Source: Streptacidiphilus sp. PB12-B1b (GTDB lineage Bacteria > Actinomycetota > Actinomycetes > Streptomycetales > Streptomycetaceae). Taken from it: 64,000 bases of DNA. Below the pieces are notes generated by a model. The model had not been told where the DNA came from. It did not search any database and was given only the letters and a program-made list of their open reading frames with translations. Both the position numbers and the translations under genes were made by a program. Each line of letters begins with the position of its first letter. The first letter of the stretch is position 1. This document shows positions 7,149 to 26,429 of the stretch, piece after piece. The stretch is from positions 6,758,001 through 6,822,000 of the forward strand of contig NZ_CP048405.1 of the NCBI RefSeq assembly GCF_014084125.1, in the 5' to 3' direction.

Positions 7149-7173
7149 CGCCGGGCTCCGGCCGCGGGGCCGG

Positions 7174-7629: not shown

Positions 7630-7740
7630 GCCGTTCACCCTTGCCTGCCGTGCGTCGGACCGTCGGATCCATCTTCGCCGACCGGGGCGCCAAGTCCACG
7701 GTTCGTACAGCTTTTGCCCTAGGACCACGGGGCAGACGGG

Positions 7741-7767: not shown

Positions 7768-7802
7768 CGTCCCGGGAAGACGATCACAGGAAAGGGACTC
7801 TC

Positions 7803-8198: not shown

Positions 8199-8265
8199 TC
8201 AGCGCTCAGCTCCTCCGGTCGGCCGGGCCGTTGCCCGCGCCGGCCGGCGGCCGTTCCGGCGGCGG

Positions 8266-9864
8266 TCACTCCTCGCCGTGGTCGACCAGGGCCTCCTCGA
8301 AGTCCAGCCGCCGCATCAGCCCGCGCAGCAGATCGTCGTCGATCCGGTCGGCGTCCCGCAGCCGGACGAAGACGGCCCGCTCGGCGGCGACCGCCTCCTT
8401 GCCCAGCCGCCGGTAGACGGCGTCCGCCGACTCCCCGGTGTCCTCGTGCACCGCCGCGCCCAGCCGCTCCCAGACCGCGTTCCGGCGCCGGTCCAGCGCC
8501 CGGCGCAGCCGCTCCTCCAGCGGCTCGGGCAGCCGGTTGCGCGGATCGGCCAGCAGTTCGTCCAGCCGGGCCTGGGCCGCCGCCGAGGCGTCGTTCTGGG
8601 CCTGCGCCTCGACCAGCACCTCCCGCTGCCGGTCCGGCGCGGGCAGCGGCAGCGCCCGGACCAGGGCCGGCAGGGTCAGCCCCTGCACCAGCAGGGTGCC
8701 GATGACCACCACGAAGGTCAGGTAGAGGATCAGGTCCCGGTCCGGGAAGGCCGCCCCGCCGTCGGCGGTGTGCGGGATCGAGAAGGCCACGGCCAGGGAG
8801 ACCACGCCGCGCATCCCGGCCCAGGCGATCACCAGCGGCCTGGTCCAGTGCGGACGGCCCTCGCGCTCCCTGACCCGGGCGCTGAGCAGCCCCGGCAGGT
8901 AGGTGGCCGGCCAGCACCAGGCGAAGCGGACCACGATCACCGCGCCCAGCAGCAGCGCCGCCCACAGCAGCAGCTCCCCGGCCGGGTAGCCGCCCAGCGC
9001 CCGCAGCACCACCGGCAGCTGCAGCCCGATCAGCGCGAAGACGGCCGACTCCAGGACGAAGGCGACCATCGTCCAGACCGCGTCCTCCTGCAGCCGCAGC
9101 GCGAAGTCCACGGTGTGGGCGTGGTGGCCCAGGTAGAGGCCGACGACGACCACGGCGACCACCCCGGAGGCGTGGAACGCCTCGGCGGCCGCGTAGGCGG
9201 CGAACGGCACCAGCAGCGAGAAGGTGTTGAGCAGCAGCGGATCGCGGATCCGGGTGCGCGCCCACTGCAACGGCACCATCAGCACCAGGCCCACCGCGAC
9301 GCCGCCGAGCGCGGCCAGCGCGAACTCGCCCAGCGCCGAGCCCCAGGAGAAGCCCTCGCCGACGGCGGCGGCCAGGGCCACCCGGTAGGCGGTGATGGCG
9401 GTGGCGTCGTTGGCCAGGCTCTCCCCCTGGAGGATGGTGACCAGCTTGGACGGCAGCCCCACCTTGCGGGCGATGGCGGTGGCGGCCACGGCGTCGGGCG
9501 GGGCGACCACCGCGCCGAGGACGAAGGCGGCCGGGATGGGCAGCCCGGGGATCACCGCGTGGGCGATCAGCCCCACCGCGAAGGTGCTGAACAGGACGTA
9601 GCCGAAGGAGAGCAGCGCCACCGAGCGGACGTTGGCGCGCAGGCCGCGGTAGGAGCTGTCCAGCGCGGAGGTGTACAGCAGCGGGGGCAGCAGCAGCGGC
9701 AGCACCAGCTCCGGGTCGAGGGTGTAGTCGGGCACGCCGGGCAGGTACGAGGCGGCCAGGCCGGCCGCGACCAGCAGCAGCGGCGCGGACAGCCCGGTGC
9801 GGCGGGCGACCCCGGCTACGGTCGCGCTGCCGGCGACGAGCAGCAGCAGGGCGCTGGTGGCCAT
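8266..9864 (-). CDS. Na+/H+ antiporter, CPA1 family
   Basis: A 532-residue membrane protein with about twelve hydrophobic segments in residues 1-420, then a 110-residue hydrophilic helical tail rich in Ala, Arg and Glu. Diagnostic parts are LGAVVAPPDAVAATAIARK (the conserved ND/PD-type helix), LQGESLANDATAI and WAGMRGVVSLAVAFSIP, which together define the monovalent cation:proton antiporter-1 (NhaP-like) family. It should exchange Na+ or K+ for protons at the cytoplasmic membrane in pH and salt homeostasis. The ATG at 9864 fits the start of the first membrane helix. It converges on sodN, with only 67 nt between the stops. Confidence 0.92.
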   Translation of the reverse strand: MATSALLLLVAGSATVAGVARRTGLSAPLLLVAAGLAASYLPGVPDYTLDPELVLPLLLPPLLYTSALDSSYRGLRANVRSVALLSFGYVLFSTFAVGLIAHAVIPGLPIPAAFVLGAVVAPPDAVAATAIARKVGLPSKLVTILQGESLANDATAITAYRVALAAAVGEGFSWGSALGEFALAALGGVAVGLVLMVPLQWARTRIRDPLLLNTFSLLVPFAAYAAAEAFHASGVVAVVVVGLYLGHHAHTVDFALRLQEDAVWTMVAFVLESAVFALIGLQLPVVLRALGGYPAGELLLWAALLLGAVIVVRFAWCWPATYLPGLLSARVREREGRPHWTRPLVIAWAGMRGVVSLAVAFSIPHTADGGAAFPDRDLILYLTFVVVIGTLLVQGLTLPALVRALPLPAPDRQREVLVEAQAQNDASAAAQARLDELLADPRNRLPEPLEERLRRALDRRRNAVWERLGAAVHEDTGESADAVYRRLGKEAVAAERAVFVRLRDADRIDDDLLRGLMRRLDFEEALVDHGEE

Positions 9865-10022
9865 GGCTCCGTCCTGGGCTGGTGCGGGCGGCCGGCGGAC
9901 CGGCGGGCCGGTGGGGCTGCCGAAGCGGCGCGGCGGGGGCGTACGGGCCCCGCAGGGCCACCGAAGCACAGCGGCGCGCGGCGGGCCCGGCGGCGCGCGG
10001 GGCGGGCGCGTACGCTGGGCGC

Positions 10023-10292
10023 ATGCCCGGAGGAACCGGCTGCTCGCACACCGCCGACCTGCCCTCGCCCGAGCCCGCGCCGCAGACCGCGACCTGCCTG
10101 CGCTGCGTGGCCCTCGGCCAGCGGCCGGTGCAGCTGCGCGCCTGCCTGACCTGCGGCCTGGTCGGCTGCTGCGACTCCTCGCCGGGACAGCACGCCACCG
10201 GGCACGCCCGCGAGTCCGGGCACCCGGTGATGCGGACGGTCGAGCCGGGCGAGTCCTGGCGCTGGTGCTATCTGCACAGCTCGCTCGTGTGA
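10023..10292 (+). CDS. UBP-type zinc finger protein
   Basis: An 89-residue protein consisting almost entirely of one ZnF-UBP domain. It has paired Cys/His ligands: CSHTAD near residue 7, CLRC, CLTCGLVGCCDS, then HATGHARESGHPV with the conserved GH. In eukaryotes this fold binds ubiquitin C-termini. In actinobacteria small stand-alone versions occur next to antiporters and the ligand is unknown. The ATG at 10023 is chosen because the frame upstream is low-complexity and without a start signal. It is divergent from the antiporter gene with 158 bp between the starts. Confidence 0.85.
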   Translation: MPGGTGCSHTADLPSPEPAPQTATCLRCVALGQRPVQLRACLTCGLVGCCDSSPGQHATGHARESGHPVMRTVEPGESWRWCYLHSSLV

Positions 10293-10322
10293 TCGCCGCG
10301 GCGGCCGCCGTAGGCTGGTCAC

Positions 10323-10799
10323 ATGATCCGAACCGCCACCGCCGCTGACGTCCCCGCCATCCACGCCATGGTCCGCGAGCTCGCCGACTACGAGCGGGCC
10401 CTCGACGAAGCCGTGGCGACCGAGCAGCAGGTGCGGGACGCCCTGTTCGGCCCGCACCCGGCCGCCTTCGCACACATCGCCGAGGATGACACGACCGGGT
10501 CGGTCGTCGGCTTCGCCCTGTGGTTCCTGAACTTCTCCACCTGGAAGGGCGTGCACGGCCTCTACCTGGAGGACCTGTACGTCCGCCCGGAGGCCCGCGG
10601 CGGCGGCCACGGCAAGGCGCTGCTGGCGACGCTGGCGCGGATCTGCACGGAGCGCGGCTACGAGCGGCTGGAGTGGTCGGTGCTGGACTGGAACCAGCCC
10701 TCGATCGGCTTCTACAAGGCGCTGGGCGCGTTCCCCATGGACGAGTGGACGGTCTTCCGGCTCACCGGTGAACCCCTGGCCCTGCTCGGGGCGAACTGA
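10323..10799 (+). CDS. GNAT family N-acetyltransferase (diamine acetyltransferase-like)
   Basis: A 158-residue single-domain acetyltransferase that uses acetyl-CoA. Motif A is LEDLYVRPEARGGGHGKALLATLARI, with the acetyl-CoA pyrophosphate-binding R-x-x-G-x-G/A signature, followed by WSVLDWNQPSIGFYKALGA. These features resemble the spermidine/thialysine (SAT1-like) branch, suggesting a small amine substrate (inference). It lies 30 nt downstream of the UBP zinc-finger gene in the same direction, probably in one transcript. Confidence 0.87.
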   Translation: MIRTATAADVPAIHAMVRELADYERALDEAVATEQQVRDALFGPHPAAFAHIAEDDTTGSVVGFALWFLNFSTWKGVHGLYLEDLYVRPEARGGGHGKALLATLARICTERGYERLEWSVLDWNQPSIGFYKALGAFPMDEWTVFRLTGEPLALLGAN

Positions 10800-11042
10800 G
10801 AGCCGGTTCACGCCAGTTCGGCCGGGCGAGCGGTTTCGGCCAGCCCCGCCGGACACGCTCCGTACCCGACGGCATACCATGAGTAACCAGCCGTCGGAGC
10901 CCCGGCTGCGGCCTCGGCCGGAGCGGCGACATCGCGGCGCGGATCGCGGTAGCGTCACCCGGGCATACAGCAGAGCACAGCACTGTGAGAACCGCGGCGG
11001 CGGCACCGCCCCCGGCGCGGCGCAACACCATCGGAGGTGAGG

Positions 11043-11562: not shown

Positions 11563-12720
11563 GTGAGTGATCTTGAGCGCGCGAGCGGTACGGGGCTGCA
11601 GGCCGCCGGACCGGGGTACGGCTCGGGCAGACCCGTCCTGCCAGGCCAGGTTGGAGTGTCGTCATCCCCGGAGTCCGCACACGCCGGGGCCGAGCAGGCG
11701 GAGGACAGGGTGTTCGCAGACGATCCCGAACGTCCCAAAGGTCCCGACGGTTCTGATGAGCCGACCGCGGCCGTGGTCGGCGAGACGGACGGCCTGGACA
11801 AGGCGGACAGCCTGGACACGGCCGAGCCCGGCGCCGATTCCGCCGCCCCGGCGCGGGCCGCCGGGCCGGACGCCGACGTCGAGCACGCCGACACCGAGCA
11901 CGCCGCCGCCCAGGAGCCGCACATCTGGGGCGGCGGTCGGCCGCTCACCGCGCCGCGCCACGGCGCCCCCGACCGGGAGGCCGCCCGCGCGCTGTTCGTG
12001 CAGCTCGCGGCGCTCCCCCGGGAGTCCCCGGAGCGGGTCGAGCTGCGCAACCAGCTGGTGCGGATGCACATCCCGCTGGTCGAGCACCTGGCCCGGCGGT
12101 TCCGCAACCGCGGCGAGCCGCTGGACGACCTGACCCAGGTCGCCACCATCGGCCTGATCAAGTCGGTGGACCGGTTCGACGTGGACCGGGGCGTGGAGTT
12201 CTCCACCTACGCCACCCCCACCATCGTCGGCGAGATCAAGCGGCACTTCCGCGACAAGGGCTGGGCGGTCCGGGTGCCGCGCCGGCTGCAGGAGCTGCGG
12301 CTGGCGCTGACCACGGCCACTGGCGAGCTGTCCCAGCAGCACGGCCGCTCCCCCACCGTGCACGAGCTGGCCGAGCGGCTCGGCATCTCCGAGGAGGAGG
12401 TGCTGGAGGGCCTGGAGTCCGCCAACGCCTACAGCACCCTGTCGCTGGACGTCCCGGACACCGACGACGAGTCCCCGGCCGTCGCCGACACCCTCGGCGC
12501 GGAGGACGACGCCCTGGAGGGCGTGGAGTACCGGGAGTCGCTGAAGCCGTTGCTGGCCCAGCTGCCGCAGCGCGAGCAGCGGATCCTGGTGCTGCGGTTC
12601 TTCCGCAACATGACCCAGTCGCAGATCGCGGCCGAGGTCGGCATCTCGCAGATGCACGTCTCCCGGCTGCTCGCCCGCACCCTGGCCCAGCTGCGCGACC
12701 GGCTGCTGATCGAGGAGTGA
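11563..12720 (+). CDS. sigH: SigB/SigF/SigG family RNA polymerase sigma factor, probably SigH
   Basis: A 385-residue stress sigma factor. Regions 2 to 4 occupy residues 145-385: MHIPLVEHLARRFRNRGEPL, the DLTQVATIGLIKSVDRFD core-binding/-10 region, TYATPTIVGEIKRHFRDKGW, the region 3 RVPRRLQELRL and the region 4 helix-turn-helix QSQIAAEVGISQMHVSRLLA. The first 120 residues are an acidic, low-complexity extension. Such an extension is known for S. coelicolor SigH, which exists as several size forms controlled by its antagonist, osmotic stress and proteolysis. GTG at 11563 has GGGGGA upstream. The following lipid kinase and WblE match the order around SCO5243-SCO5240 as I recall it. Confidence 0.85.
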   Translation: MSDLERASGTGLQAAGPGYGSGRPVLPGQVGVSSSPESAHAGAEQAEDRVFADDPERPKGPDGSDEPTAAVVGETDGLDKADSLDTAEPGADSAAPARAAGPDADVEHADTEHAAAQEPHIWGGGRPLTAPRHGAPDREAARALFVQLAALPRESPERVELRNQLVRMHIPLVEHLARRFRNRGEPLDDLTQVATIGLIKSVDRFDVDRGVEFSTYATPTIVGEIKRHFRDKGWAVRVPRRLQELRLALTTATGELSQQHGRSPTVHELAERLGISEEEVLEGLESANAYSTLSLDVPDTDDESPAVADTLGAEDDALEGVEYRESLKPLLAQLPQREQRILVLRFFRNMTQSQIAAEVGISQMHVSRLLARTLAQLRDRLLIEE

Positions 12721-13359: not shown

Positions 13360-14307
13360 ATGCGCGCCCTCCTGGTCTTCAACCCGAAGGCCACCACCAC
13401 CAGTGGCCGGACCAGGGACGTGCTCGCACACGCGCTGGCCAGCACCCTCAAGCTGGAGATCGCCGGTACCGAGTACCGCGGCCACGCCCGCGACCTGGCC
13501 CGGGAGGCCACCGCCTCCGGCAGCATCGACCTGGTGGTCGCCCTGGGCGGCGACGGCACCGTCAACGAGATCGTCAACGGGCTGCTCGCCGACGGCCCCG
13601 CCGAGGACCTGCCCCGGCTGGCCGTGGTGCCCGGCGGCAGCACCAACGTCTTCGCCCGGGCGCTCGGACTGCCCAACGACCCGGTCGAGGCCACCAGCGT
13701 GCTGCTGGAGGCGATCGCGGCCGGCAGCGAGCGCACCATCGGCCTGGGCAGGGCGAGCACCGAGGGCCTGCCGGAGCGCTGGTTCACCTTCACCGCGGGC
13801 TTCGGCTTCGACGCCGGGGTGGTCGGCCGGGTCGAGCAGCACCGCCGCAGCGGCCGGCGCTCCACCCATGCGCTCTACGTCAACCAGGCGGTGCGGCACT
13901 ACTTCGGGGTCAAGGAGCACCGCAAGGCCGGCCCGATCACGCTGAGTGTTCCGGGGCAGGATCCGGTGGACGGCCTGGTCGTCTCGATAGTCTCCAACAC
14001 CTCCCCCTGGACCTTCCTGGGCAATCGACCGGTGTACGCCTCGCCCGAGGCCACGTTCGACGCGGACCTGGACATCTTCGGTCTGACCCGGATGTCACTC
14101 GTTCAGACGCTGCGCACCATCCCTCAGCTTCTGGACGCCTCGGCGGCGGGTCCACGGGGCAAACATGTGGTCGCTTATCACGACCTCGGCGAATTCACCT
14201 TGCATTCGCAGGAACCACTGCCATTTCAGGTCGACGGAGACCACCTTGGAGAGCGGAACCAAGTCAGGTTCTCAGGCGTACGCCGCGCACTGCGTGTGAT
14301 TGTGTGA
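13360..14307 (+). CDS. Diacylglycerol kinase family lipid kinase
   Basis: A 315-residue protein of the DAGK/LCB5/YegS family. The ATP-binding signature VVALGGDGTVNEIVNGLL lies near residues 58-75, followed by VVPGGSTNVFARALGLP. The N-terminal FNPKATTTSG and the C-terminal QVDGDHLGER beta-sandwich are also typical. It phosphorylates a lipid or polyprenyl substrate, probably at the membrane face; the exact substrate is unknown. The ATG at 13360 is preceded by GGTAAG. It lies upstream of wblE, an arrangement conserved in streptomycetes. Confidence 0.9.
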   Translation: MRALLVFNPKATTTSGRTRDVLAHALASTLKLEIAGTEYRGHARDLAREATASGSIDLVVALGGDGTVNEIVNGLLADGPAEDLPRLAVVPGGSTNVFARALGLPNDPVEATSVLLEAIAAGSERTIGLGRASTEGLPERWFTFTAGFGFDAGVVGRVEQHRRSGRRSTHALYVNQAVRHYFGVKEHRKAGPITLSVPGQDPVDGLVVSIVSNTSPWTFLGNRPVYASPEATFDADLDIFGLTRMSLVQTLRTIPQLLDASAAGPRGKHVVAYHDLGEFTLHSQEPLPFQVDGDHLGERNQVRFSGVRRALRVIV

Positions 14308-14374: not shown

Positions 14375-14567
14375 ACCTAGCCGACACCAATGAATCAAAA
14401 TTTACTTCCCGAAGGGGGTTGTATCCGGGGTCGAGGTTTGCGAACCTTTACCTGGCGATCGGGACAGTCCGTCACCGGACACCCGCCCAAGTCGCCCGAA
14501 CCCACCGCAACGCTGCGAGCACCCGTATGCCGACCCACCTGTCGGCCCTGTGTCCGCCCATGGGTTC

Positions 14568-14581
14568 GTGAAAGCGTTCAC
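14568..14581. promoter_or_regulatory. Candidate Crp-type operator upstream of wblE
   Basis: GTGAAAGCGTTCAC is a perfect GTGA-N6-TCAC palindrome, the core of the Crp/cAMP-receptor consensus. It is centred about 67 nt upstream of the wblE ATG in the 334-bp intergenic region. Mycobacterial whiB1 is known to be controlled by a Crp protein (Rv3676). No clear -10 hexamer was identified to place it relative to a promoter. Confidence 0.5.
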
Positions 14582-14641
14582 ATTCACAAGCAACCAGGTG
14601 TCTGTGGGGGTAAACCCGCAGGCAGGAGGAGTTGGATCACC

Positions 14642-14893
14642 ATGGACTGGCGCCACCGCGCTGTCTGCCGGGAAGAGGACCCCGAGCTGTTCTTCCCCAT
14701 CGGCAACACGGGGCCGGCCCTGCTGCAGATCGAGGAGGCGAAGGCCGTGTGCCGTCGCTGCCCCGTCATGGAAAGCTGCCTGCAGTGGGCCCTGGAGACC
14801 GGTCAGGACGCCGGCGTCTGGGGCGGTATGAGCGAGGACGAGCGCCGCGCGATGAAGCGCCGTGCCGCCCGCAACCGTGCCCGCACGGCCTGA
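14642..14893 (+). CDS. wblE: WhiB family iron-sulfur regulator WblE (WhiB1 orthologue)
   Basis: An 83-residue protein almost identical in pattern to streptomycete WblE and mycobacterial WhiB1. Four cysteines coordinate a [4Fe-4S] cluster: the one in AVCREEDPELFFP, then the pair in AVCRRCPVMESC, with the last closing the C-x2-C-x5-C set. The G(V/I)WGG turn (GVWGGMSEDERR) and a basic tail (MKRRAARNRAR) follow. WhiB1-type proteins are nitric-oxide-sensitive and bind the principal sigma factor to regulate transcription. The ATG at 14642 has GGAGGAG upstream, and the leader is long (334 bp to the previous gene). In mycobacteria whiB1 is adjacent to pdtaS; here a synthetase gene separates them. Confidence 0.95.
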   Translation: MDWRHRAVCREEDPELFFPIGNTGPALLQIEEAKAVCRRCPVMESCLQWALETGQDAGVWGGMSEDERRAMKRRAARNRARTA

Positions 14894-14918
14894 CACGCAC
14901 TCAAGCACCGCCGGGGGT

Positions 14919-14955
14919 CCGGGGGTTGTGCCTCTTCGGAGCACCACACCCCCGG
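14919..14955 (+). terminator. Probable wblE terminator hairpin
   Basis: CCGGGGG (14919-14925) pairs with CCCCCGG (14949-14955); the inner GTGC/GCAC pairs interrupted by bulges extend the stem. It begins 26 nt after the wblE stop. Confidence 0.5.
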
Positions 14956-15178
14956 AACGGCAGTACCGCGAAGCACAGCGCACCACCTGTTCCACGCAGC
15001 CGCACGTCTGATCAGCCCTTGATCGAGTGCGCCGAGCCGCCCAGGCGAGCACGACGGCGTACTTTCCGAGGCAACGCACGCCACTCGTGGTGCTCTGCGG
15101 GCCCGACAGTTTGATACCGTCGGATCCGAGGGCAGCCACTCGTGCGATGCACGCGGGCCCGGCCCGCACCCAGAGCCC

Positions 15179-15213
15179 CTGCTCCGGCCGACTCCCCCCG
15201 ACGGCCGGAGCAG
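15179..15213. terminator. Hairpin in the wblE-pls convergent region
   Basis: CTGCTCCGGCCG (15179-15190) pairs perfectly with 15202-15213 around an 11-nt loop. Either direction is possible. Confidence 0.6.
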
Positions 15214-15219
15214 GTCTGA

Positions 15220-15257
15220 GAGGCCCTGCCGACCCTCCCCCCGGTCGGCAGGGCCTC
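15220..15257 (-). terminator. Terminator of the Pls/PosA synthetase gene
   Basis: GAGGCCCTGCCGACC (15220-15234) pairs perfectly with 15243-15257 around an 8-nt loop, directly downstream of the minus-strand stop at 15261. Confidence 0.8.
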
Positions 15258-15260
15258 GCT

Positions 15261-18200
15261 TCATCTCCGGGCCCGGTCCTGCGGCCAGTCGGCGACCGGG
15301 TTGCCCAGCCAGCGTCCGCCGCCGGGCAGCCGCTCCCCGCGCATCACCAGCGAGGACGGCCCCACCACCGCGCGTTCGCCCAGCTCCGCGCCCAGCAGCA
15401 CGATGGAGTGCGGGCCGACGGTCGCCCCCGCGCCGACGGTCACCGCGTCCATCCGCAGCAGCCGGTCGTGGAACAGGTGCGTCTGCAGCACCACGCCCCG
15501 GTTGAGCGAGGCGCCCGCGCCCACCCGCACCAGGTCCAGCTCCGGCAGCCAGTGGGTCTCACACCACACCCCGCGGCCGATCCCGGCGCCGAGGCTGCGC
15601 AGCCACAGGTTCAGGAACGGCGTGCCGACCAGCGCGCTCCCGAGCCAGGGCATGGCCAGCTCCTCGACCCAGCTGTCGAAGAGTTCGTTGCGCCAGACGA
15701 AGGAACTCCACAGCGGCCGCTGCCCCGCGCGGTAGCGGCCGAGCAGCAGCCATTTGGCCGCAGTCGTCAGCAGGCAGGCCGTCAGGCCGCAGCCGAGCAG
15801 CAGCAGGCCGCCGCCGAGCACCAGCGGCAGCGGCCCCGGGGAGGCCGCCAGCAGCGCCTGCAGGCCGCACACGGCCGCGTCGCCGAGCAGGACGCTCAGC
15901 AGCACCGGGACCACCCGGCACAGCTCGACCGCCGCCCGCGCCCACACCAGCCGCCGCGGCGGGTCGTAGGTGCGGGCGGCGTCGGCCCGCTCCGGGACGC
16001 GCCGGACCGGGAACCCCGGCCGGCCCAGCCATGAGCCGCCGGGCCCGGCGTCCAGGTGTCCCGGCGGCGGGACGTCGGAGAGGACGCCCACCAGGGAGTC
16101 GTCCGGCAGGGCCCGGTCGGGGCCGACGATGCCGGAGTTGCCGACGAAGGAGCGCCGGCCGACCCGCGCCGAGCCCAGCCGCAGCCAGCCGCCGCGCACC
16201 TCGAACGGCGCCAGCAGGGTGTCGTCAGCCAGGAAGGCGTAGTCGTCCACCCGCATCAGCCCGGGCAGCCCGAGCACGGTGGACGCCTCGACCCGGCGGC
16301 CGACGTCCGCGCCCAGCAGCCGCAGCCAGCCCGGCGTCAACAGGCTTGCGTAGAGCGGGAAGAGGACGCTCCGGGCGGTGCCGGTAAGGTTGAGCACGGC
16401 CCAGGAGCACCAGGCGGCGCGGCCGAGCGCGGGGTGCAGGCCGGGCGTCAGCGGCCGGGAGAGCAGCCGGACCAGGGCCGCCGTCAGCAGCGCGTAGAGG
16501 GCCAGCGAGAGCAGCGACAGCGGCCCCGAGGCGGCCAGCAGCCGCAGCCCGGCCCCGCCGAGCGTGCGCTGGTGCGCGACCAGGCGGTAGAGCAGCAGCA
16601 GCGCCGGGAGCGCGGACAGCAGCGGCAGGCCCTGGAGCAGCGGCAGCGAGAGCCCGTAGGCCAGCTCCCAGGCGCGCGAGCGGCGGTGGCGCGGGTTCGG
16701 CCAACGGGCGGCGGCCGACGCGCCGTCAGCGCCGTTGCCGGGCACCGGCGGCTGCGGCCGGGCCGGTACGCCGTGCCAGTGCTGCCCGGACGGCACCCGG
16801 CCGGTGACGCAGCTGCCGGGGGCGATCTCGGCGCCCGCCCCGACGTCCGCCCCGGGCATCAGCACGGCGCGGGTGCCGATCCGCGCGCCGGGTCCGACCC
16901 TCACCGCGCCGAGGTGCAGCCGGTCGCCGTCGAGCCACCAGCCGGCGGCGTCCACCTCCGGTTCCAGCGAGCAGCCCGCGCCGAACTCGGCCAGCCCGGT
17001 GACCGGCGGCAGGGTGTGCAGGTGCACGTCCGGGCCGACCCGGCAGCCCAGCATCCGGGCGTAGCGCCGGGCCAGCGGGGTGCCGACGACGGCGGCCACG
17101 CTGAAGGCGGCGACCAGCCGTTCGGCGGTCCACAGCCGCAGGTGGGCCGCGCCGCCGCGGGGGTGGCTGCCCGGGCGCAGGCCCAGGGTGAGCAGCCGGG
17201 CCCCGCCCGCGCCGACGGAGGCCCGGCCGAAGGCGCTGGAGAGCAGCAGCCAGCCGACCCCGAGCAGCCACCAGGGGGTGTGCACGGTCCAGGGCAGCGG
17301 CCCGACCAGGTTGTCCAGGGCGGCCAGCGGCAGCAGCAGGCGCACGGCGGTGACCGCCTGCAGCGCCGTCAGCACGGCGGCCTGGACGGCCCCGGCGCGC
17401 AGCGGCACCGACCGCACCGGGCCCGGGGCAGCGTCGGCACCGGCATCGAGCCCGTCGGCACCGGCCCCGGCGGCCTCGGCGGCCCGGCCCCGGTCCAGGT
17501 GGGCGGCCAGATCGGCGAGCCGGGGCCGGTGGTAGACGTCGGCGACGGACGCGCCGGGGTGGCGTTCGCGCAGCAGCGAGACCAGCCGGGCGGCGGCGAG
17601 GCTGGTGCCGCCCAGGGCGAAGAAGTCGCTGTCCGCCCCGGCCGGGACGCCGAGCAGCTCGCGCCAGCGCTCGGCCAGCCAGCCGGCCGTGCCGGACAGC
17701 TCCCCGGCGGCGGGCGCGTCGGCGCCCGGGAGCGGCCAGGGCAGGGCCGCCCGGTCCACCTTGCCGGAGGTGCGGATGGGCAGCTCCGGCAGGAAGGCGA
17801 GCACCGGCAGCAGCGCGGGCGGCAGCCGCTGGGCCAGCCGCTCCCGCAGCGCCTGCGCCGAGGGCGCGGCGGCACCCGGCTCCGGCACCAGGTAGCCGAC
17901 CAGGACCTGCCCGCCCGCCGGGGTGGTGCGCACCGCGGCGGACGCCGCCCGGACGCCGGGAAGGGCGGCCAGGGCGGCGTCGATCTCGCCGAGCTCGATC
18001 CGCCGCCCGCCGAGCTTGACCTGCTCGTCCGCGCGGCCGACGTAGACCAGGCCCTCGGGGTCGGCCCGGACCAGGTCGCCGCTGCGGTAGCAGCGGGGGC
18101 CGGGCAGGGCGGGGTGCGGCCGGAACCTCTCGGCGTCCTTGGCCGGGTCAAGGTAGCGGGCGGCGCCCACTCCCCCGATCAGCAGTTCGCCCACCTCGCC

Positions 18201-19289
18201 CCAGGCGACGGGTTCGCCCCCGGGGCCGACCACGGCCAGCTCCCAACCGTCGAGCGGCTCGCCGATGCGTACCGGCTGCCCGGCGCGCATCCGCGAGCCG
18301 CAGGCCACCACGGTGGTCTCGGTGGGCCCGTAGGTGTTCCAGAACTCGCGGCCGGGCGCGTCCAGCCGCTCCACCAGCTCGGCCGGGCACGCCTCGCCGC
18401 CGACGATCAGCAGCCTGATCCGGTCCAGTGCGGCGGCCGGCCACAGCGCGGCCAGCGTGGGCACGGTGGAGACGGCGGTGATCCCGCGCTCGGCCAGCCA
18501 GGGGCCGAGGTCCGCCCCGGCCCGGACCAGCGAGCGCGGCGCCGGGACCAGGCAGCCGCCGCTGCGCCAGGCCAGCCACATCTCCTCGCAGGAGGCGTCG
18601 AAGGCCACCGAGAGGCCGGCCAGCACCCGGTCGCCGGGGCCCAGCGGGGCGTCCCGCAGGAACAGCCCGGCCTCGGCGTCGACGAAGGCGGCGGCCGAGC
18701 GGTGGGTGACCGCGACGCCCTTGGGGCGCCCGGTGGTGCCGGAGGTGAAGATGATCCAGGCGTCGTCGTCCGGGCCGGGCGGCCGGGAGCCGCCGCCGGC
18801 CGGGGCGGGCCCGGGAGTGAACGTTCCTCCTTCGCCCAGCACCGCGCACACCCCGGCGTCGGCCCAGATCAGCTCGGCGCGCTCGTCCGGGTCGTCCACG
18901 TCCACCGGGACGTAGGCCGCGCCCGCGCAGAGCACGCCGAGGACGGCGGTGTACAGCCCGGCGGTGCCGGACGGCCTCCGGACGCCGACCCGGTCGCCGG
19001 GGCCGACGCCGCGCCGGGCCAGCTCGGCGGCGAGCGCGCCGGCCGCCGCGCGCAGGCCGCGGTAGTCCAGGGCCGCGCCGTCCCCGGCGTCCAGCGCCGG
19101 GGCGAGCGGGTACCGGCGGACGGTGTCGTCCAGGACGTCCACCAGGGTCCGGGCGGGCGCGGGGGCCCGGGAGGGCCACACCGCCCCGGCCGCCCGTCCG
19201 GGCTGCTGGCGCTGGTCTGTGAGAGTCGCCGTGGTGAGAGTCGCCGCGGTGGGGTTCGCCGCGGCGAGGGTCAGATTGTCAGGATCCAC
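15261..19289 (-). CDS. Pls/PosA family non-ribosomal peptide synthetase (poly-amino-acid synthetase-like)
   Basis: A 1342-residue one-protein synthetase with the architecture of epsilon-poly-L-lysine synthetase Pls. Residues 45-530 are an adenylation domain: A3 FTSGTTGRPKG at 181-191, FDASCEEMW in the substrate pocket, NTYGPTETT, YRSGDLVR and the GKVDRAALPWP catalytic lysine. Residues 540-610 are a carrier domain with the phosphopantetheine serine in FFALGGTSLAAA (Ser563). From about 630 three pairs of membrane helices alternate with three soluble domains carrying left-handed-beta-helix-like repeats, as in Pls. There is no thioesterase or condensation HHxxxDG motif. It should activate one amino acid and polymerise it at the membrane. 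The acidic Glu in FDASCEE hints at a basic substrate (inference). The GTG at 19289 has only a weak ribosome-binding site. It is flanked by wblE and pdtaS, not by a degradation gene. Confidence 0.88.
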   Translation of the reverse strand: MDPDNLTLAAANPTAATLTTATLTDQRQQPGRAAGAVWPSRAPAPARTLVDVLDDTVRRYPLAPALDAGDGAALDYRGLRAAAGALAAELARRGVGPGDRVGVRRPSGTAGLYTAVLGVLCAGAAYVPVDVDDPDERAELIWADAGVCAVLGEGGTFTPGPAPAGGGSRPPGPDDDAWIIFTSGTTGRPKGVAVTHRSAAAFVDAEAGLFLRDAPLGPGDRVLAGLSVAFDASCEEMWLAWRSGGCLVPAPRSLVRAGADLGPWLAERGITAVSTVPTLAALWPAAALDRIRLLIVGGEACPAELVERLDAPGREFWNTYGPTETTVVACGSRMRAGQPVRIGEPLDGWELAVVGPGGEPVAWGEVGELLIGGVGAARYLDPAKDAERFRPHPALPGPRCYRSGDLVRADPEGLVYVGRADEQVKLGGRRIELGEIDAALAALPGVRAASAAVRTTPAGGQVLVGYLVPEPGAAAPSAQALRERLAQRLPPALLPVLAFLPELPIRTSGKVDRAALPWPLPGADAPAAGELSGTAGWLAERWRELLGVPAGADSDFFALGGTSLAAARLVSLLRERHPGASVADVYHRPRLADLAAHLDRGRAAEAAGAGADGLDAGADAAPGPVRSVPLRAGAVQAAVLTALQAVTAVRLLLPLAALDNLVGPLPWTVHTPWWLLGVGWLLLSSAFGRASVGAGGARLLTLGLRPGSHPRGGAAHLRLWTAERLVAAFSVAAVVGTPLARRYARMLGCRVGPDVHLHTLPPVTGLAEFGAGCSLEPEVDAAGWWLDGDRLHLGAVRVGPGARIGTRAVLMPGADVGAGAEIAPGSCVTGRVPSGQHWHGVPARPQPPVPGNGADGASAAARWPNPRHRRSRAWELAYGLSLPLLQGLPLLSALPALLLLYRLVAHQRTLGGAGLRLLAASGPLSLLSLALYALLTAALVRLLSRPLTPGLHPALGRAAWCSWAVLNLTGTARSVLFPLYASLLTPGWLRLLGADVGRRVEASTVLGLPGLMRVDDYAFLADDTLLAPFEVRGGWLRLGSARVGRRSFVGNSGIVGPDRALPDDSLVGVLSDVPPPGHLDAGPGGSWLGRPGFPVRRVPERADAARTYDPPRRLVWARAAVELCRVVPVLLSVLLGDAAVCGLQALLAASPGPLPLVLGGGLLLLGCGLTACLLTTAAKWLLLGRYRAGQRPLWSSFVWRNELFDSWVEELAMPWLGSALVGTPFLNLWLRSLGAGIGRGVWCETHWLPELDLVRVGAGASLNRGVVLQTHLFHDRLLRMDAVTVGAGATVGPHSIVLLGAELGERAVVGPSSLVMRGERLPGGGRWLGNPVADWPQDRARR
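19219..19274. repeat. 15-bp tandem repeat at the 5' end of the synthetase gene
   Basis: About 3.7 imperfect copies of GTGAGAGTCGCCGCG with a 15-bp period (19219, 19234, 19249, 19264). On the coding strand they give five-residue Thr/Ala/Leu units in the N-terminal 25 residues, ahead of the adenylation domain. A multiple of three keeps the frame if copy number changes. Confidence 0.65.
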
Positions 19290-19397
19290 GCCTAGTACAC
19301 GAGGGACTACCGTCCGAAGTTGTGCCGAAGCCGATGAGAAGTGGGTTAATCCCGAGAAAGCCGACGTGTACGCGTATGTCGGGACCTGGCCGGGCGG

Positions 19398-20888
19398 TCA
19401 GTGCCCGACCGTGACCGGCACCTCCAGCAGCACCCGTGTCCCGCCCGGCTCGGCCGCCACCATGTCGAAGCGGCCGCCCAGCTCGCCGACGACCAGGGTA
19501 CGGACGATCTGCAGCCCCAGATTGCCCTGCTGCTGGGGGTCGAAGCCCTCCGGCAGGCCGCGTCCGTCGTCGGTGACGGTGATCAGCAGCAGCTCCTCGC
19601 GCGCGCCGGGCTCGCGCCGCCGCACCGCCGAGACCCCGACCGTCCCGCCCGCCTTGGGGCCGTAGGCGTGCTCCAGGGCGTTCTGCAGGATCTCGGTGAG
19701 CACCATGGCCAGGGGGGTGGCGACGTCCGCCGGGAGGATGCCGAAGGAGCCGCTGCGCCGGGCGGTGACCAGGCCGTCCTGGGACAGCTCCATCACCATG
19801 GTCAGCACCCGGTCGGCGATCTCGTCGAAGGCGACGTGCTCGTCCAGGTTCTGCGACAGGGTCTCGTGGACGATGGCGATCGAGCCCACCCGGCGCACGG
19901 CCTCGTCCAGCGCGCCCTTGGCCGCCTCGGAGTCCATCCGGCGGGACTGGAGCCGCAGCAGCGCGGCCACCGTCTGCAGGTTGTTCTTCACCCGGTGATG
20001 GATCTCGCGGATGGTGGCGTCCTTGGTCATCAGCTCGCGCTCGCGCCGCCGCAGCTCGGTGACGTCGCGCAGCAGCACCAGCGAGCCGGTGTGCACGCCC
20101 TTGGGCTTCAGCGGGATGGCCCGCAGCTGCACCACGCCCTCGGTGGACTCCACCTCCACCTGCCGCGGGGCCCAGCCGCTGGCCAGCTTGACCAGCGCTT
20201 CGTCCACCGGGCCGCGGGTCTGCGGCGGGGCCAGCTCGGCGGTGGTCCGGCCGAGGTGCAGCCCGACCAGGTCGGCGGCGAGGCCGAGCCGGTGGTAGGC
20301 GGAGAGCGCGTTGGGGCTGGCGTAGGTGACCACGCCGTCGGCGTCCAGCCGGAGCAGGCCGTCGCCGGCCCGCGGCGAGGCGTCCATGTCGACTTGCTCG
20401 CCGGGGAAGGGAAACGTTCCGGCGGCGATCATCTGGGCCAGGTCGGAGGCGCTCTGCAGGTAGGTCAGCTCCAGCCGGCTGGGGGTGCGCACGGTCAGCA
20501 GGTTGGTGTTGCGGGCGATCACCCCGAGCACCCGGCCCTCCCGCCGGACCGGGATGGACTCCACCCGCACCGGGACGTCCTCCCGCCACTCCGGGTCGCC
20601 CTCGCGGACGATCCGGCCCTCGTCCAGCGCCACGTCCAGCATCGGCCGGCGGCCGCGCGGGACCAGGTGCCCGACCATGTCGTCCAGGTACGAGGTGGGG
20701 CCGGTATTGGGCCGCATCTGCGCCAGCGAGACGTAGCGGGTGCCGTCCCGGGTGGGCACCCACAGCACCAGGTCGGCGAAGGAGAGGTCGGAGAGCAGCT
20801 GCCACTCGGACACCAGGAGGTGGATCCACTCCACGTCGGCGCTGTCCAGGGAGGTGTGGTGGCGCACCAGCTCGTTCAGGGAAGGCAT
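19398..20888 (-). CDS. pdtaS: PdtaS-type sensor histidine kinase with PAS domain
   Basis: A 496-residue soluble kinase. Residues 1-160 resemble the GAF-like N-terminal sensor of PdtaS. A PAS domain follows at about 180-285 (GLLRLDADGVVTYASPNALSAY). A HisKA_2/HWE-type dimerisation domain carries IREIHHRVKNNLQT (phospho-acceptor His297 or His298). The ATPase domain includes EILQNALEHAYGP and TDDGRGLPEGF. No membrane helix is seen. In mycobacteria PdtaS signals to the antiterminator PdtaR and its gene is next to whiB1. The ATG at 20888 is clear of upstream frame. Two DasR-like boxes lie 77-107 bp upstream, which is unexpected for this gene. Confidence 0.9.
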   Translation of the reverse strand: MPSLNELVRHHTSLDSADVEWIHLLVSEWQLLSDLSFADLVLWVPTRDGTRYVSLAQMRPNTGPTSYLDDMVGHLVPRGRRPMLDVALDEGRIVREGDPEWREDVPVRVESIPVRREGRVLGVIARNTNLLTVRTPSRLELTYLQSASDLAQMIAAGTFPFPGEQVDMDASPRAGDGLLRLDADGVVTYASPNALSAYHRLGLAADLVGLHLGRTTAELAPPQTRGPVDEALVKLASGWAPRQVEVESTEGVVQLRAIPLKPKGVHTGSLVLLRDVTELRRRERELMTKDATIREIHHRVKNNLQTVAALLRLQSRRMDSEAAKGALDEAVRRVGSIAIVHETLSQNLDEHVAFDEIADRVLTMVMELSQDGLVTARRSGSFGILPADVATPLAMVLTEILQNALEHAYGPKAGGTVGVSAVRRREPGAREELLLITVTDDGRGLPEGFDPQQQGNLGLQIVRTLVVGELGGRFDMVAAEPGGTRVLLEVPVTVGH

Positions 20889-21315: not shown

Positions 21316-22587
21316 TCAGCCGCCGCCGAGCCGCGCGGTGATCTCCGCGTCCGCCTTGTCGGCCGCCTGCGCCTGGTTCTCACCCTCCAGCACCGGGGTG
21401 AGGAAGTCGGTGGTGATCGGGTTGGTCCCGGCCTCGACATCGCCCCAGTCGGGGACGAGCGGGGTGTAGCCGGCGTAGGGCGCAGCCAGGCTCTCCGCCT
21501 CGCCGTAGGCGTTGCCCCGCAGCGCCGGGTACAGGCCGGCCTTGTTCGGCAGGAAGCCCGACGCCTTGGCGAAGGCCGACTCGTTGGCGGCGTCCAGGGC
21601 GATCCGCACGAAGCCCAGGGCCAGCGTCCGGTCGGTGGTGTTCTGGGCCACGGCCAGGTTGGAGCCGCCGAGGAAGGTCTTGGCCGGGACGCCCTTGTCA
21701 GGCCCGGGGATCGGGAACCAGCCGATGTCGTCGGCCATGCCCGGACTGGCCTGCAGCACCGTGCCGGCCTCGTAGCCCAGGGCGATCATCGAGGCGACGT
21801 GCCCCTTGGCGAACTCGTCGGCCTGGACCGGGTGCGCCTCGTCGTTGTCCTTGGGCGCCTTGCCGAACGCCTGGAGCAGCCGGAACAGCGTGGCCGCGTT
21901 GAGCCCGGCCGGGGAGTCCAGGTTGCCCACCCACCGGTTGCCCCTGCGGGCGATGATGCCGGCCCCGGCCTGCTGCAGGAAGCCGTCGAAGGCGTACCAG
22001 TCCTGGCCGGGCAGCCAGAGCGCCGAGCTGACGCCGGGGGTGTCCTGCAGCACCCGCAGATCGCTGATCCACTGCGCCTGGGTGGACGGCGGGCTGAGCC
22101 TGGCCTTGGCCCAGAGCGCCTTGTTGTACATCACCACCCGCAGCCCGGCGAACCAGGGCGCGGCGTACTGCACGCCGCCGACCAGGGTCGAGGCGTTCAT
22201 GGCGGAGGACCAGTCGGCGCCGCCGAGCTGCTTGCGGTACGGGCCGAGGTTCAGCAGCCCGCCGATGGAGGCGTAGTAGGAGGTCTGGGTGTTGCCGATG
22301 TCCACCACGTCCGGCGGGGTCAGCGCGGAGAGCGCCTCGGACAGCCGCTCCTGGATGCCGGACCAGGACTGCTGGACGACGTTCAGCCGGGCCCCCGGGT
22401 AGGCGGCCTCGAACTGCGCCGTCACGGCCGCCTGCCAGGAGGCGGGGGCGTCCCCCTGCATCAGCCACACGGTCAGGGTCTGCCCGGCGTAGCCGTGGGC
22501 CGCGCCGCCGCCCGAGCCGGACCCGCAGGCGGTCACGGCCGCCAGCGTGGCGGCCGTGCCGAGAGCGACCAGAAGCCGACGATTCAT
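21316..22587 (-). CDS. ABC transporter sugar-binding lipoprotein, DasA paralogue
   Basis: A 423-residue extracellular solute-binding protein (family 1) for a CUT1-type sugar importer. It has a lipoprotein signal (AATLAAVTACGSGSG, lipobox VTAC) and then a mature domain closely parallel to the DasA protein encoded at 26430-27716. Shared stretches include DVVDIGNTQTSYY, the YAFDGFLQQAGA region, KTFLGGSNLAVA and NPITTDFLTPVLEG. It probably binds a chitooligosaccharide. The ATG at 22587 has GGAGG upstream. It has its own promoter region with a DasR-like box at 22704, and no permease genes follow, so it probably feeds the DasBC permeases with MsiK (inference). Confidence 0.88.
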   Translation of the reverse strand: MNRRLLVALGTAATLAAVTACGSGSGGGAAHGYAGQTLTVWLMQGDAPASWQAAVTAQFEAAYPGARLNVVQQSWSGIQERLSEALSALTPPDVVDIGNTQTSYYASIGGLLNLGPYRKQLGGADWSSAMNASTLVGGVQYAAPWFAGLRVVMYNKALWAKARLSPPSTQAQWISDLRVLQDTPGVSSALWLPGQDWYAFDGFLQQAGAGIIARRGNRWVGNLDSPAGLNAATLFRLLQAFGKAPKDNDEAHPVQADEFAKGHVASMIALGYEAGTVLQASPGMADDIGWFPIPGPDKGVPAKTFLGGSNLAVAQNTTDRTLALGFVRIALDAANESAFAKASGFLPNKAGLYPALRGNAYGEAESLAAPYAGYTPLVPDWGDVEAGTNPITTDFLTPVLEGENQAQAADKADAEITARLGGG

Positions 22588-22703
22588 GCCATCCTCCGCT
22601 TGAACGCAGGGGGCGCCCCGCCCGCCGCCCGGGCGGCCGCTGCCGGATGCCGGGCCCTCGAGGACGCTCCCCCCGGGGCGTGCCGATCCGAATGCAGGAA
22701 GCT

Positions 22704-22715
22704 TGGACTAGACCA
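22704..22715. promoter_or_regulatory. DasR-box-like palindrome upstream of the second das binding protein
   Basis: TGGACTAGACCA differs from the DasR core TGGTCTAGACCA at one position. It lies 117 bp upstream of the start at 22587, in the 323-bp gap after dasD. Confidence 0.75.
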
Positions 22716-22842
22716 TTTGGGGCGTCAATAACCCGGTGTGACGCATGGGTCAACCGTTACCGGACCGACGCCGGGCGTAGGCCGGACCTTGGGATTCCGC
22801 CCGCCGTACGGCCGCCATCCGCCCCAACTCCCGCTGCCACAA

Positions 22843-22888
22843 AGGGCGTTCCCCGCCCCGGCTGCAGTGGCCGGAACGGGGGAACGCC
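22843..22888 (-). terminator. Terminator after dasD
   Basis: GGGCGTTCCCC (22843-22853) pairs perfectly with GGGGAACGCCC (22878-22888), with CCGG/CCGG pairing inside the loop. It lies just downstream of the minus-strand stop at 22911 and closes the das operon. Confidence 0.8.
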
Positions 22889-22910
22889 CCTCAGTAGATC
22901 CGATGGCGCG

Positions 22911-24464
22911 TCAGAAGCGGTTCCCCGGAAGGCCGGTGAGCACCTCGACCGCGGCCAGCCCGCAGACCCGGGCGGCGCCGTGGGTGGCGATGTGCAGCGC
23001 GCCGATCGGCTCCGCCTGCGGCACCCCCATCTCCACCACGGCCGCATCCGGGCGCAGTTGCAGCAGCCCGCGCAGGGCGGCGTCCATCCACGCGTGCCGG
23101 TGCGCGTCGCGCACGACCACCACCACCCGGCGCCCGGCGGCGTCCTGCCGGATCTGCTCCAGCAGCCCCGGCAGCAGCTCGGGCGCGGCCTCGCGGGGCC
23201 CGGCGCTGCGGGTCCTGGTGCCGGGCAGCCGGGTCGCCAGCATCCCGGCGACACCCCAGGGGGTCTCCTGGCCGACCGCGATGTTGGCGACCGGGCTGAG
23301 CGACAGCACATAGGGCCGGTCGGTGATCGGCTCGAAGACCGCCCCGGACGGGAGGGTGACGCGCAGCGCCCGGCGGGCGGCGCGCAGCCCGATGGACAGG
23401 TCCGGCGCGATCCGGCCCCCGGTGCGGGCCCGGGCGGCGGTCCACGCGCCCAGCCTGCGGACCCGCCCGGCGGCCTCGGCCAGCCGCTGCTCCGGCAGTT
23501 CGCCCGAGCGGACGGCCGCCACCAGGGCGTCCCGCAGCTGGAGCACCGTCTCCTCGTCGCTGAGCCCGCCGCCGACGCAGATCGCGTCCACCCCGGCGGC
23601 GACCGCGAGCACGGTGCCGCGCGCGGTGCCGTAGGTGTGGGCGATCGCGCCCATCTCGATGCCGTCGGTGACGATCAGGCCGTCGTAGCCGAGGCCGCCC
23701 TCGGCGGCCGGGCGCCGCAACAGGTCCAGGATCGGCCGGCTGAGCGTGGCCGGGCGGGAGCCGTCCAGGGCCGGGACCATGATGTGCGCGGTCATCACGG
23801 CCTTGGCCCCGGCCGCGATGGCGGCCTTGAACGGCACCAGGTCGCGCGAGCGCAGCAGGTCCACGTCGATGTCGACCACCGGCAGGCCGAGGTGCGAGTC
23901 GACGGCGGTGTCGCCGTGCCCGGGGAAGTGCTTGGCGCAGGCGGCCACGCCGACCGACTGGAGCCCCTCCACCCAGGCGGCGGTGTGCCGGGCGCACAGG
24001 TCCGGGTCGGCCCCGAAGGAGCGCACCCCGATCACCGGGTTGCCCGGGTTGGAGTTGACGTCGGCCGAGGGCGCCCAGTTGTAGTTGACGCCGCACTCGG
24101 CGAGCGCGCGGCCCAGCTCGCGGGCGACGTCCCGGGTCAGCCCGGGGTCGTCGATGGCGCCCAGGGCGAGGTTGCCCGGCCAGGAGGAGCCGTTGCCGGA
24201 CTCCAGCCGGGTGACGTCGCCGCCCTCCTCGTCGACGGCCACCAGGATCTCGGGGTTCTCCGCGCGCAGCTCCGCGGTCAGCGCGGCCAGTTGCTGCTGG
24301 TCGGTGACGTTGCGGGAGAACAGGGCCACCGAGCCGAGCCCCGCGGCCACGTGGTGGCGGAGCCAGTCCGGCGGGGTGGTGCCCACGAAGCCGGGCTGCA
24401 GCACCGCCAGCGCGTCGCGGTGCAGCGTGTCCGAGGTCCTCGCGGTCCTTTCGATGATGCTCAC
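22911..24464 (-). CDS. dasD: Beta-N-acetylglucosaminidase, glycoside hydrolase family 3
   Basis: A 517-residue intracellular GH3 enzyme that removes N-acetylglucosamine from chitooligosaccharides, or 1,6-anhydromuropeptides (NagZ-like). The family signature ACAKHFPGHGDTAVDSH (catalytic His of the loop) and IVTDGIEMGAIAHTYG (nucleophile Asp) are present, with VDEEGGDVTRLE upstream. No signal peptide is seen, so it acts on imported sugars. It is the last gene of the das operon: GTG at 24464 starts one base before the end of dasC (TGACGTG arrangement). It is probably under DasR control from the dasA promoter. Confidence 0.92.
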   Translation of the reverse strand: MSIIERTARTSDTLHRDALAVLQPGFVGTTPPDWLRHHVAAGLGSVALFSRNVTDQQQLAALTAELRAENPEILVAVDEEGGDVTRLESGNGSSWPGNLALGAIDDPGLTRDVARELGRALAECGVNYNWAPSADVNSNPGNPVIGVRSFGADPDLCARHTAAWVEGLQSVGVAACAKHFPGHGDTAVDSHLGLPVVDIDVDLLRSRDLVPFKAAIAAGAKAVMTAHIMVPALDGSRPATLSRPILDLLRRPAAEGGLGYDGLIVTDGIEMGAIAHTYGTARGTVLAVAAGVDAICVGGGLSDEETVLQLRDALVAAVRSGELPEQRLAEAAGRVRRLGAWTAARARTGGRIAPDLSIGLRAARRALRVTLPSGAVFEPITDRPYVLSLSPVANIAVGQETPWGVAGMLATRLPGTRTRSAGPREAAPELLPGLLEQIRQDAAGRRVVVVVRDAHRHAWMDAALRGLLQLRPDAAVVEMGVPQAEPIGALHIATHGAARVCGLAAVEVLTGLPGNRF

Positions 24465-24465
24465 G

Positions 24466-25296
24466 TCAGCCCTTCACCGCGCCGGCCGTGAGGCCGCCGA
24501 CCGCCCGGCGCTGCATGATGATGAACAGCACCAGCACCGGCACCGCGAACAGCGTCGCGGCGGCCATGGTGGCGCCCCAGTCGTCGCCGAACTGGGTCTG
24601 GAACGAGGTGATCCACAGCGCCAGGGTGTAGTGCGGGGAGTCCGTCTCCAGCACCAGCACCAGCGGGAACTCGCCCCAGGCGGTGATGAAGCCGAACAGC
24701 GAGGTGGCCATCAGCCCGGGGGCCAGCAGCGGGAAGATGATCCGCCAGAACGCCTGGACCCGGTTGCAGCCGTCGATCAGCGCCGACTCCTCCAGCTCCT
24801 TGGGGATGGCCCCGACGAAGTTGCGCAGCGTCCAGACGGTGAACGGCAGGATCATCACCATGTAGAACAGCATCAGCGGGAGGATCTGGTCCAGCATGTT
24901 GTTGTTGCGGACGATCATGTAGACCGAGATCTGCAGCACTGCCCAGGGCGCCATCTGCGCGACCATGACCACCAGGATGAACGCCTTGCGCCCGCGGAAC
25001 CGCATCCGGGCGATGGCCACCGAGGCCATCAGCGCGATCACCAGCGAGATCAGCACCGCGCCGAGGGTGGCGGTGAGGCTGTTGACCCAGAAGTTGCTGA
25101 AGTCGTTGACCTTGGTGACGGTCCTGAAGTGCGCGAAGGTCAGGTCGGTCGGGAAGAACACCGGGGTCTTGCTGAACAAATCCTTGGCCGGGGTGAAGGC
25201 CGTGACGATCATCCAGTAGACCGGGAAGATGAACACGACCGCCAGGACCAGGGCGATGGTGTTGAAGGTGATCCGGGTTGCGAGCGAGCGCCTCAC
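24466..25296 (-). CDS. dasC: ABC sugar transporter permease DasC
   Basis: A 276-residue inner-membrane permease of the carbohydrate uptake (MalG-like) type. It has six membrane segments and the cytoplasmic EAA loop in KELEESALIDGCNRVQAFWR, which contacts the shared ATPase (MsiK in streptomycetes; not encoded here). It imports (GlcNAc)2-type chitin fragments together with DasB and the DasA binding proteins. The start is GTG at 25296, overlapping the dasB stop as GTGA, with AGGAGG upstream. The frame is open much further upstream, but that part has no membrane-protein character and lies inside dasB. Confidence 0.92.
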   Translation of the reverse strand: MRRSLATRITFNTIALVLAVVFIFPVYWMIVTAFTPAKDLFSKTPVFFPTDLTFAHFRTVTKVNDFSNFWVNSLTATLGAVLISLVIALMASVAIARMRFRGRKAFILVVMVAQMAPWAVLQISVYMIVRNNNMLDQILPLMLFYMVMILPFTVWTLRNFVGAIPKELEESALIDGCNRVQAFWRIIFPLLAPGLMATSLFGFITAWGEFPLVLVLETDSPHYTLALWITSFQTQFGDDWGATMAAATLFAVPVLVLFIIMQRRAVGGLTAGAVKG

Positions 25297-26333: not shown

Positions 26334-26375
26334 GCCTCTCACTTCTGTCAGGCCCTGTGCGGATCAGCGGGCGGC

Positions 26376-26413
26376 GCCGCCCGCCCCGGCAGTCTCTCCC
26401 CGGGGCGGGCGGC
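26376..26413 (-). terminator. Stem-loop between dasA and dasB, likely partial terminator or mRNA stabiliser
   Basis: GCCGCCCGCCCCGG (26376-26389) pairs perfectly with 26400-26413 around a 10-nt loop, 16 nt beyond the dasA stop. In binding-protein operons such structures keep the first message in excess over the permease message. Confidence 0.75.
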
Positions 26414-26429
26414 ACACAGGCGGTTGCTA

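Follow-up and report, generated by a model that had tools for sequence, protein, structure and literature searches.

A putative second epsilon-poly-L-lysine synthetase, not linked to pldII, between pdtaS and whiB in Streptacidiphilus

Members of Streptacidiphilus are acid-loving soil bacteria. A stretch of 64,000 nucleotides from Streptacidiphilus sp. PB12-B1b (NCBI RefSeq contig NZ_CP048405.1, positions 6,758,001 to 6,822,000 of the forward strand; the whole stretch is called the window below) was found to carry a gene for a homologue of epsilon-poly-L-lysine synthetase (gene pls, protein Pls) between the histidine kinase gene pdtaS and a whiB-family gene (Table 1). An earlier note, made from the letters of this DNA, had placed between these two genes, on the strand of pdtaS, a Pls/PosA-type synthetase of 1342 residues with the layout adenylation-carrier-(membrane pair-soluble domain)x3. 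Both the position (PF12282 and PF02467 in the flanking genes) and the layout (TIGR02353, Pfam, hydropathy, and AlphaFold2) were confirmed.

In profile searches the window synthetase scored 633.2 bits with TIGR02353, over the curated cut-off of 423.1. This terminal-domain match covered residues 635-1332 and was preceded by AMP-binding (residues 54-378, 196 bits) and AMP-binding C (435-510). Pfam matches at an E value of 0.001 were limited to AMP-binding, AMP-binding_C, PP-binding, and Hexapep, with one adenylation (A) and one thiolation (T) domain and no canonical condensation or thioesterase domain at that threshold. The GTG start was backed by a homologous GTGGA in 11 of the 11 aligned congener loci. 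Hydropathy averaged over 112 aligned rows resolved six membrane stretches, grouped as three pairs, in the C-terminal half, and the synthetase's own profile, under a stricter cut, recovered five of the six, missing 676-694. The AlphaFold2 model of residues 602-1342 (32 input sequences; mean predicted local distance difference test, pLDDT, 82.6; predicted template modeling score, pTM, 0.87) contained a unit repeated three times, a long helix pair and then a left-handed beta helix. Its best Foldseek matches were hexapeptide acetyltransferases (best E 1.6e-4; 11 matches at 0.001 or below), which are weak yet consistent with the expected architecture of the terminal domain. The arrangement that marks the family, six membrane helices as three pairs, each with an acetyltransferase-like soluble domain, was thus found. 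The same kind of model is reported for PosA, the delta-poly-L-ornithine synthetase of Acinetobacter baumannii, which has the same family and architecture and likewise forms a single-gene locus (PMC10522769).

Table 1. Features of the pls locus in the window, and the classical pls copy elsewhere in the genome
Feature	Position	Strand	Evidence or remark
pls-like gene, epsilon-poly-L-lysine synthetase homologue, 1342 residues, GTG start	15261..19289	-	Open reading frame (ORF) list; TIGR02353; A-domain code; congener alignment
Adenylation domain, residues 40-523, code DAESIGTVVK (lysine)	17721..19172	-	phmmer and code comparison
Carrier (thiolation) domain with GGTS, residues 537-598	17496..17681	-	PF00550, 42.5 bits; serine 563 kept
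Pls/PosA terminal domain, 3x (membrane helix pair + left-handed beta helix)	15294..17387	-	TIGR02353, hydropathy, AlphaFold2, Foldseek
pdtaS histidine kinase gene, upstream of pls	19398..20888	-	PF12282 GAF_PdtaS 186 bits, HisKA_2
pdtaS-pls intergenic stretch, 108 bases	19290..19397	-	No better folded than shuffles, z +2.0; congener alignment
Hairpin past the pls stop, two exact 15-base arms (15220-15234, 15243-15257)	15220..15257	.	Folding z -3.2 and -3.9
whiB-family gene, convergent with pls; WhiB domain at ORF residues 87-155, true start probably further in	14390..14893	+	PF02467, 97 bits
Diacylglycerol-kinase-family gene, conserved neighborhood	13360..14307	+	PF00781; beside whiB in 19/19 non-genus genomes
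Possible SigF-type sigma factor, assigned by eye	11563-12720		Part of conserved order, found in the 19 non-genus genomes
Classical pls, then pldII homologue	G000:C1:2086839-2088860 (L005, about 7000-10882)		pls frame broken once; PldII homologue one frame

The A domain of the window synthetase matched 7wew, the solved domain of the Streptomyces albulus epsilon-poly-L-lysine synthetase, over residues 26-509 (phmmer, 690 bits); of 469 aligned positions, 71% were identical. The ten specificity residues, located by GrsA numbering, were identical in the two proteins (10/10), with the Asp, Ala, and Glu of a lysine-type pocket at positions 1-3. In PMC10522769, position 2 is said to set the length of the substrate, with Ala for lysine, Met for ornithine, and Phe for diaminopropionate or diaminobutyrate, and Asp at position 1 and Glu at position 3 are given as conserved in the family and required for PosA activity. 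Because the code and much of the A domain agree with 7wew and position 2 is Ala, not the Met or Phe of the synthetases for poly-ornithine, poly-diaminobutyrate, and poly-diaminopropionate, L-lysine is the expected substrate. On these residues there is a high likelihood that the monomer is L-lysine, and by family membership epsilon-poly-L-lysine would be the expected product. The earlier note had proposed a cationic homopolymer of unknown monomer. The acidic pocket residue on which it relied is indeed present, and the pocket alignment with Pls homologues that it suggested points to the lysine code in place of an open choice. A monomer of no assignable kind was rejected, as all ten code residues are those of the lysine enzyme.

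The same code was found in 139 of 146 compared rows, a count that includes some genes twice, as short and long loci. Two further rows were truncated (the second copy in the same genome, entered twice) and five were otherwise different (L128, DAESVGTVVK; L088, DAESIGTVIK; L129, truncated contig; L132, fragment; L149, DFECLSVVSK). L149 (genome G017) is a Pls/PosA homologue whose Phe at position 2 agrees with diaminopropionate-type enzymes.

In the trees the window synthetase fell in a branch with S. albulus-like Pls. This well-supported branch includes L044, which is 93% identical to 7wew in its A domain and 57% identical to the window synthetase in its terminal domain. The domain order is also that of S. 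albulus Pls, but the window gene differs in its chromosomal place and in lacking a downstream pldII. According to two reports, Pls is coupled to the enzyme PldII, which degrades the polymer and serves in self-protection, and whose gene in S. albulus shares 4 bases with the end of pls (PMC4361855, PMC9223678). The window pls is not followed by pldII, and no PldII-like gene was detected in the 64 kb by tblastn, other kinds of peptidase not having been searched for; the remark in the earlier note that the usual hydrolase is missing nearby therefore stands within that search. The pls-pldII operon defines the usual locus, not the enzyme. The 4-base overlap recurs in loci L050 and L052, whose downstream gene encodes a protein with HELAHQW, a stretch of M1 aminopeptidases. 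Searches with queries from these two detected a PldII-like gene in 98 of 145 loci; it was in every case encoded on the strand of pls and lay, in most, within 250 bases downstream of it.

The search for related loci retained the best 80 of at least 583, and 34 of the 146 rows were left out of the tree (duplicates, fragments, and the 7wew chain). PldII was carried by 81 rows of the resulting 112-row tree. A clade of 26 rows including the window was free of any PldII-like match, with a support of 97 (FastTree, 112 rows) and, in the Shimodaira-Hasegawa-like approximate likelihood ratio test (SH-aLRT), of 94 (IQ-TREE, 40 rows), slightly short of the threshold of 95 for that method. Downstream sequence of 1.3 kb or more was available for 25 of the 26; L128, with only 267 bases, cannot be judged. 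The clade comprises the window gene, 10 genes at the pdtaS locus, three Streptacidiphilus paralogues, nine Kitasatospora/Streptomyces genes, and three genes from another family of the order. Its sister group is mixed (L042 and L043 with PldII, L045 without it in 8.9 kb), and the next branch out consists of S. albulus-like genes, all with PldII save L053, whose flank is cut. The other tree rows without a PldII match were L045 and L088, together with L046 and L053, which have cut flanks.

Clade members usually, not always, occur in genomes that also hold a classical pls-pldII pair. Such a PldII gene beside another pls is encoded in 21 of the 22 searched genomes with a clade member (12 of Streptacidiphilus, counting the present one and G011, where the clade copy is a fragment; eight with Kitasatospora-type genes; G017; and G019). 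The exception is G019 (L134; same order, another family; 99% complete), which holds just one copy scoring above the cut-off, the clade Pls, and gave no PldII-like match at E 1e-40. No common partner genes emerged around the 15 clade members outside the pdtaS locus (L034 and L128 with short flanks): 10 ORF families occurred in at least three loci within 7 kb, of which nine were confined to five closely related Kitasatospora-type loci, and the tenth (L036, L049, and L134), the only one shared between genera, lay at differing places and on differing strands. Two congeners (L115 and L121) have an additional Pls paralogue that is free of PldII; the gene immediately after it encodes, as judged by eye, a PAS-plus-phosphatase-like regulator.

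A full-length pls frame between pdtaS and whiB was present in 10 of 12 Streptacidiphilus congeners (with a stretch of N inside the frame in G001). Pls fragments occupied this place in G007 (76% complete), and the contig of G011 ends about 340 bases past pdtaS, so that the presence of pls there cannot be judged. Outside the genus, pdtaS and whiB were direct neighbors, about 150-530 bases apart, in 19 of 19 genomes (15 reached through loci and four of the same order), as the earlier note had stated for mycobacteria and streptomycetes, and no pls match was found at the locus in the 18 kb fetched from each of the 19. Similarly, among the best 80 of at least 583 loci, a PdtaS-like ORF was found in the flanks of pls only in Streptacidiphilus carbonis (L035, NZ_BBPM01000037.1; Pls ORF of 1499 residues). 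Looking for the gene at the same locus in relatives, as the earlier note had proposed, thus gave a positive answer within the genus and a negative one outside it. Because pls is there in 10 of 12 congeners while pdtaS and whiB adjoin in all 19 genomes outside, the insertion is specific to the sampled Streptacidiphilus and old within them; an insertion common to the wider family was rejected.

Two TIGR02353 copies over the cut-off are present in the genome of the window, and the only PldII-like gene at E 1e-40 or better lies directly behind the second one, at about 2.09 Mb. The term "orphan" in the earlier note is therefore apt for the locus but not for the genome, which has a classical pls-pldII pair elsewhere. 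The classical copy belongs to the same family, shares the last seven code residues (SIGTVVK, as aligned), and has FDASCEEMW before its frame break; its terminal domain is 52% identical to that of the window synthetase. At the break a run of C is one base shorter than in three congeners, which could reflect either a true mutation or an error in sequencing. In the former case the window gene would be the only intact Pls in the genome.

Several features indicate that the window gene is maintained. With a third-position guanine-plus-cytosine (GC) fraction of 0.97 and a ratio of nonsynonymous to synonymous substitution rates (dN/dS) of 0.38-0.41 against three orthologues, it is under constraint and did not arise as an ORF by chance. 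The same simple NG86 method, which underestimates dS at this GC, gave ratios of 0.42-0.48 when three pairs of the classical copy were compared; pdtaS had 0.16-0.20, the kinase gene beyond whiB 0.12-0.17, and the gene of the upstream solute-binding protein 0.44-0.80. Within the genus, the window pls is thus under purifying selection no weaker than that acting on the classical copy, whereas selection on the regulatory neighbors is stronger. Moreover, of 350 columns that are at least 98% identical among 80 PldII-linked synthetases, 341 are kept, including the carrier serine 563 and QTHLFHDR.

Based on these comparisons, it is quite probable that the window gene encodes a membrane-bound epsilon-poly-L-lysine synthetase, a second, PldII-free copy acquired between pdtaS and whiB by an ancestor of the Streptacidiphilus sampled here. 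If it works as S. albulus Pls does, L-lysine would be activated with ATP by the adenylation domain and bound to the carrier domain as a thioester, and the terminal domain, embedded in the membrane, would couple lysines via their epsilon-amino groups to form a linear polycation; catalysis, product, and chain length are inferred. The gene is likely an extra or separately regulated source of this antimicrobial polycation, and hydrolysis, if any, would be by PldII made from the classical locus. Several observations weigh against this reading. The usual pldII partner is missing beside the gene, and the code alone fixes neither the L or D configuration nor the bond. A silent pls gene is described for C. 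variabile (PMC8117764), by which the presence of the gene is no proof of production. The synthetase departs from nine of the 350 conserved columns; seven of these departures occur in other clade members too, and those at positions 450 and 494 are unique to the window among the 26. Against the more distant L049 and L044, dN/dS rises to 0.56-0.57. Furthermore, the pdtaS-locus rows do not form one clade, and three paralogues from elsewhere in G006, G008, and G009 stand among them; a single insertion followed by duplication would fit this pattern, without being proven by it.

The choice of another diamino acid (ornithine, diaminobutyrate, diaminopropionate, or beta-lysine), which the earlier note had left open, would give a different homopolymer. 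Family members of the same layout do use such substrates (PMC10522769, PMC8117764), and the code residues leave some room for relaxed choice, PosA being able to bind lysine too. However, the published codes for ornithine (DMEHNGTVSK, that of PosA) and beta-lysine (DGESISVVNK), as well as the Phe at position 2 of the diaminopropionate and diaminobutyrate enzymes, all differ from the window code (PMC10522769), which equals that of the lysine enzyme throughout, and the sole row with Phe at this position, L149, is merely 42% identical to the window A domain. Such a product is accordingly very improbable. We give still slightly less credence to a decaying duplicate without product. A second copy does exist, and about 30 leader bases with a ribosome-site-like GACGAGAG, present before the GTG in the nearest congeners (L125, L126, and L132), are missing at 19289-19310 of the window. 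On the other hand, the frame is of full length with its conserved residues kept, selection resembles that on the classical copy, the gene persists in 10 of 12 congeners, and the copy with a broken frame in this genome is the classical one, though this could be caused by a sequencing error in the C run.

A separate task for the extra synthetase, such as an envelope-bound or developmentally timed polycation spared from PldII and switched by PdtaS/PdtaR or WhiB, appears unlikely, if less so than these two. The lack of a pldII link is common to the whole 26-row clade (L128 aside), G019 holds a clade member but gave no PldII-like match at the threshold used, and the same-strand position after pdtaS is kept within the genus. 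In Streptomyces coelicolor, PdtaS/PdtaR is described as lowering antibiotic production and favoring differentiation, with PdtaR an RNA antiterminator (PMC9739842), for which reason control of pls by PdtaS is thinkable; like control by WhiB, it is unproven. However, clade members outside the genus lie at other places with only one ORF family shared between genera in 15 loci, and PldII beside another pls in 21 of 22 searched genomes makes trimming in trans possible. The pdtaS-pls leader, moreover, has no structure above chance: it folds worse than its shuffles (z +2.0), so there is no hint of a structured antiterminator target. The role in redox or stress signaling suggested by the earlier note was drawn from position alone and is unsupported. 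It is similarly improbable that the epsilon-polylysine of the 26-row clade serves some purpose other than as a secreted antibiotic, such as that of a persistent polycation of the envelope in actinomycetes from acid habitats, with the Streptacidiphilus copy under PdtaS/PdtaR or WhiB.

The Pls family itself is already known; what is distinctive here is a lineage-specific place and an extra synthetase uncoupled from its degrader, a modest oddity. Epsilon-polylysine is an industrial food preservative, and Streptacidiphilus could be counted among its possible producers; a search of the available literature library pairing Streptacidiphilus with polylysine or poly-L-lysine found no report. PMC9606270 calls the biological significance of such polymers unclear. 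The lysine-coded clade uncoupled from PldII, in most searched genomes found beside a coupled copy, offers material for asking how PldII affects the length of the chains and whether they serve in a second role.

Around these genes, the hairpin past the pls stop is located between the stop codons of the convergent pls and whiB and is probably, as we infer, a terminator shared by both. Scans of 14850-19600 found no consensus terminator with a T-run, the hairpin not being listed either, and no sigma-70-like promoter. On the other side of pdtaS, 21316-28979 is probably one sugar-uptake locus: it encodes a pair of solute-binding proteins that belong to the same Pfam family (21316-22587 and 26430-27752), a family-3 glycosidase (22911-24464), between them what by eye are permease-like proteins, and a GntR/UTRA regulator (28161-28979). 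Farther away, a large protein with glycosyltransferase-2 and CDP-glycerol glycerophosphotransferase domains (58068-61664) and a second glycosyltransferase-2 protein with the first part of the domain only (62689-63903) are, by their predicted domains, assigned to the synthesis of a teichoic-acid-like polymer.

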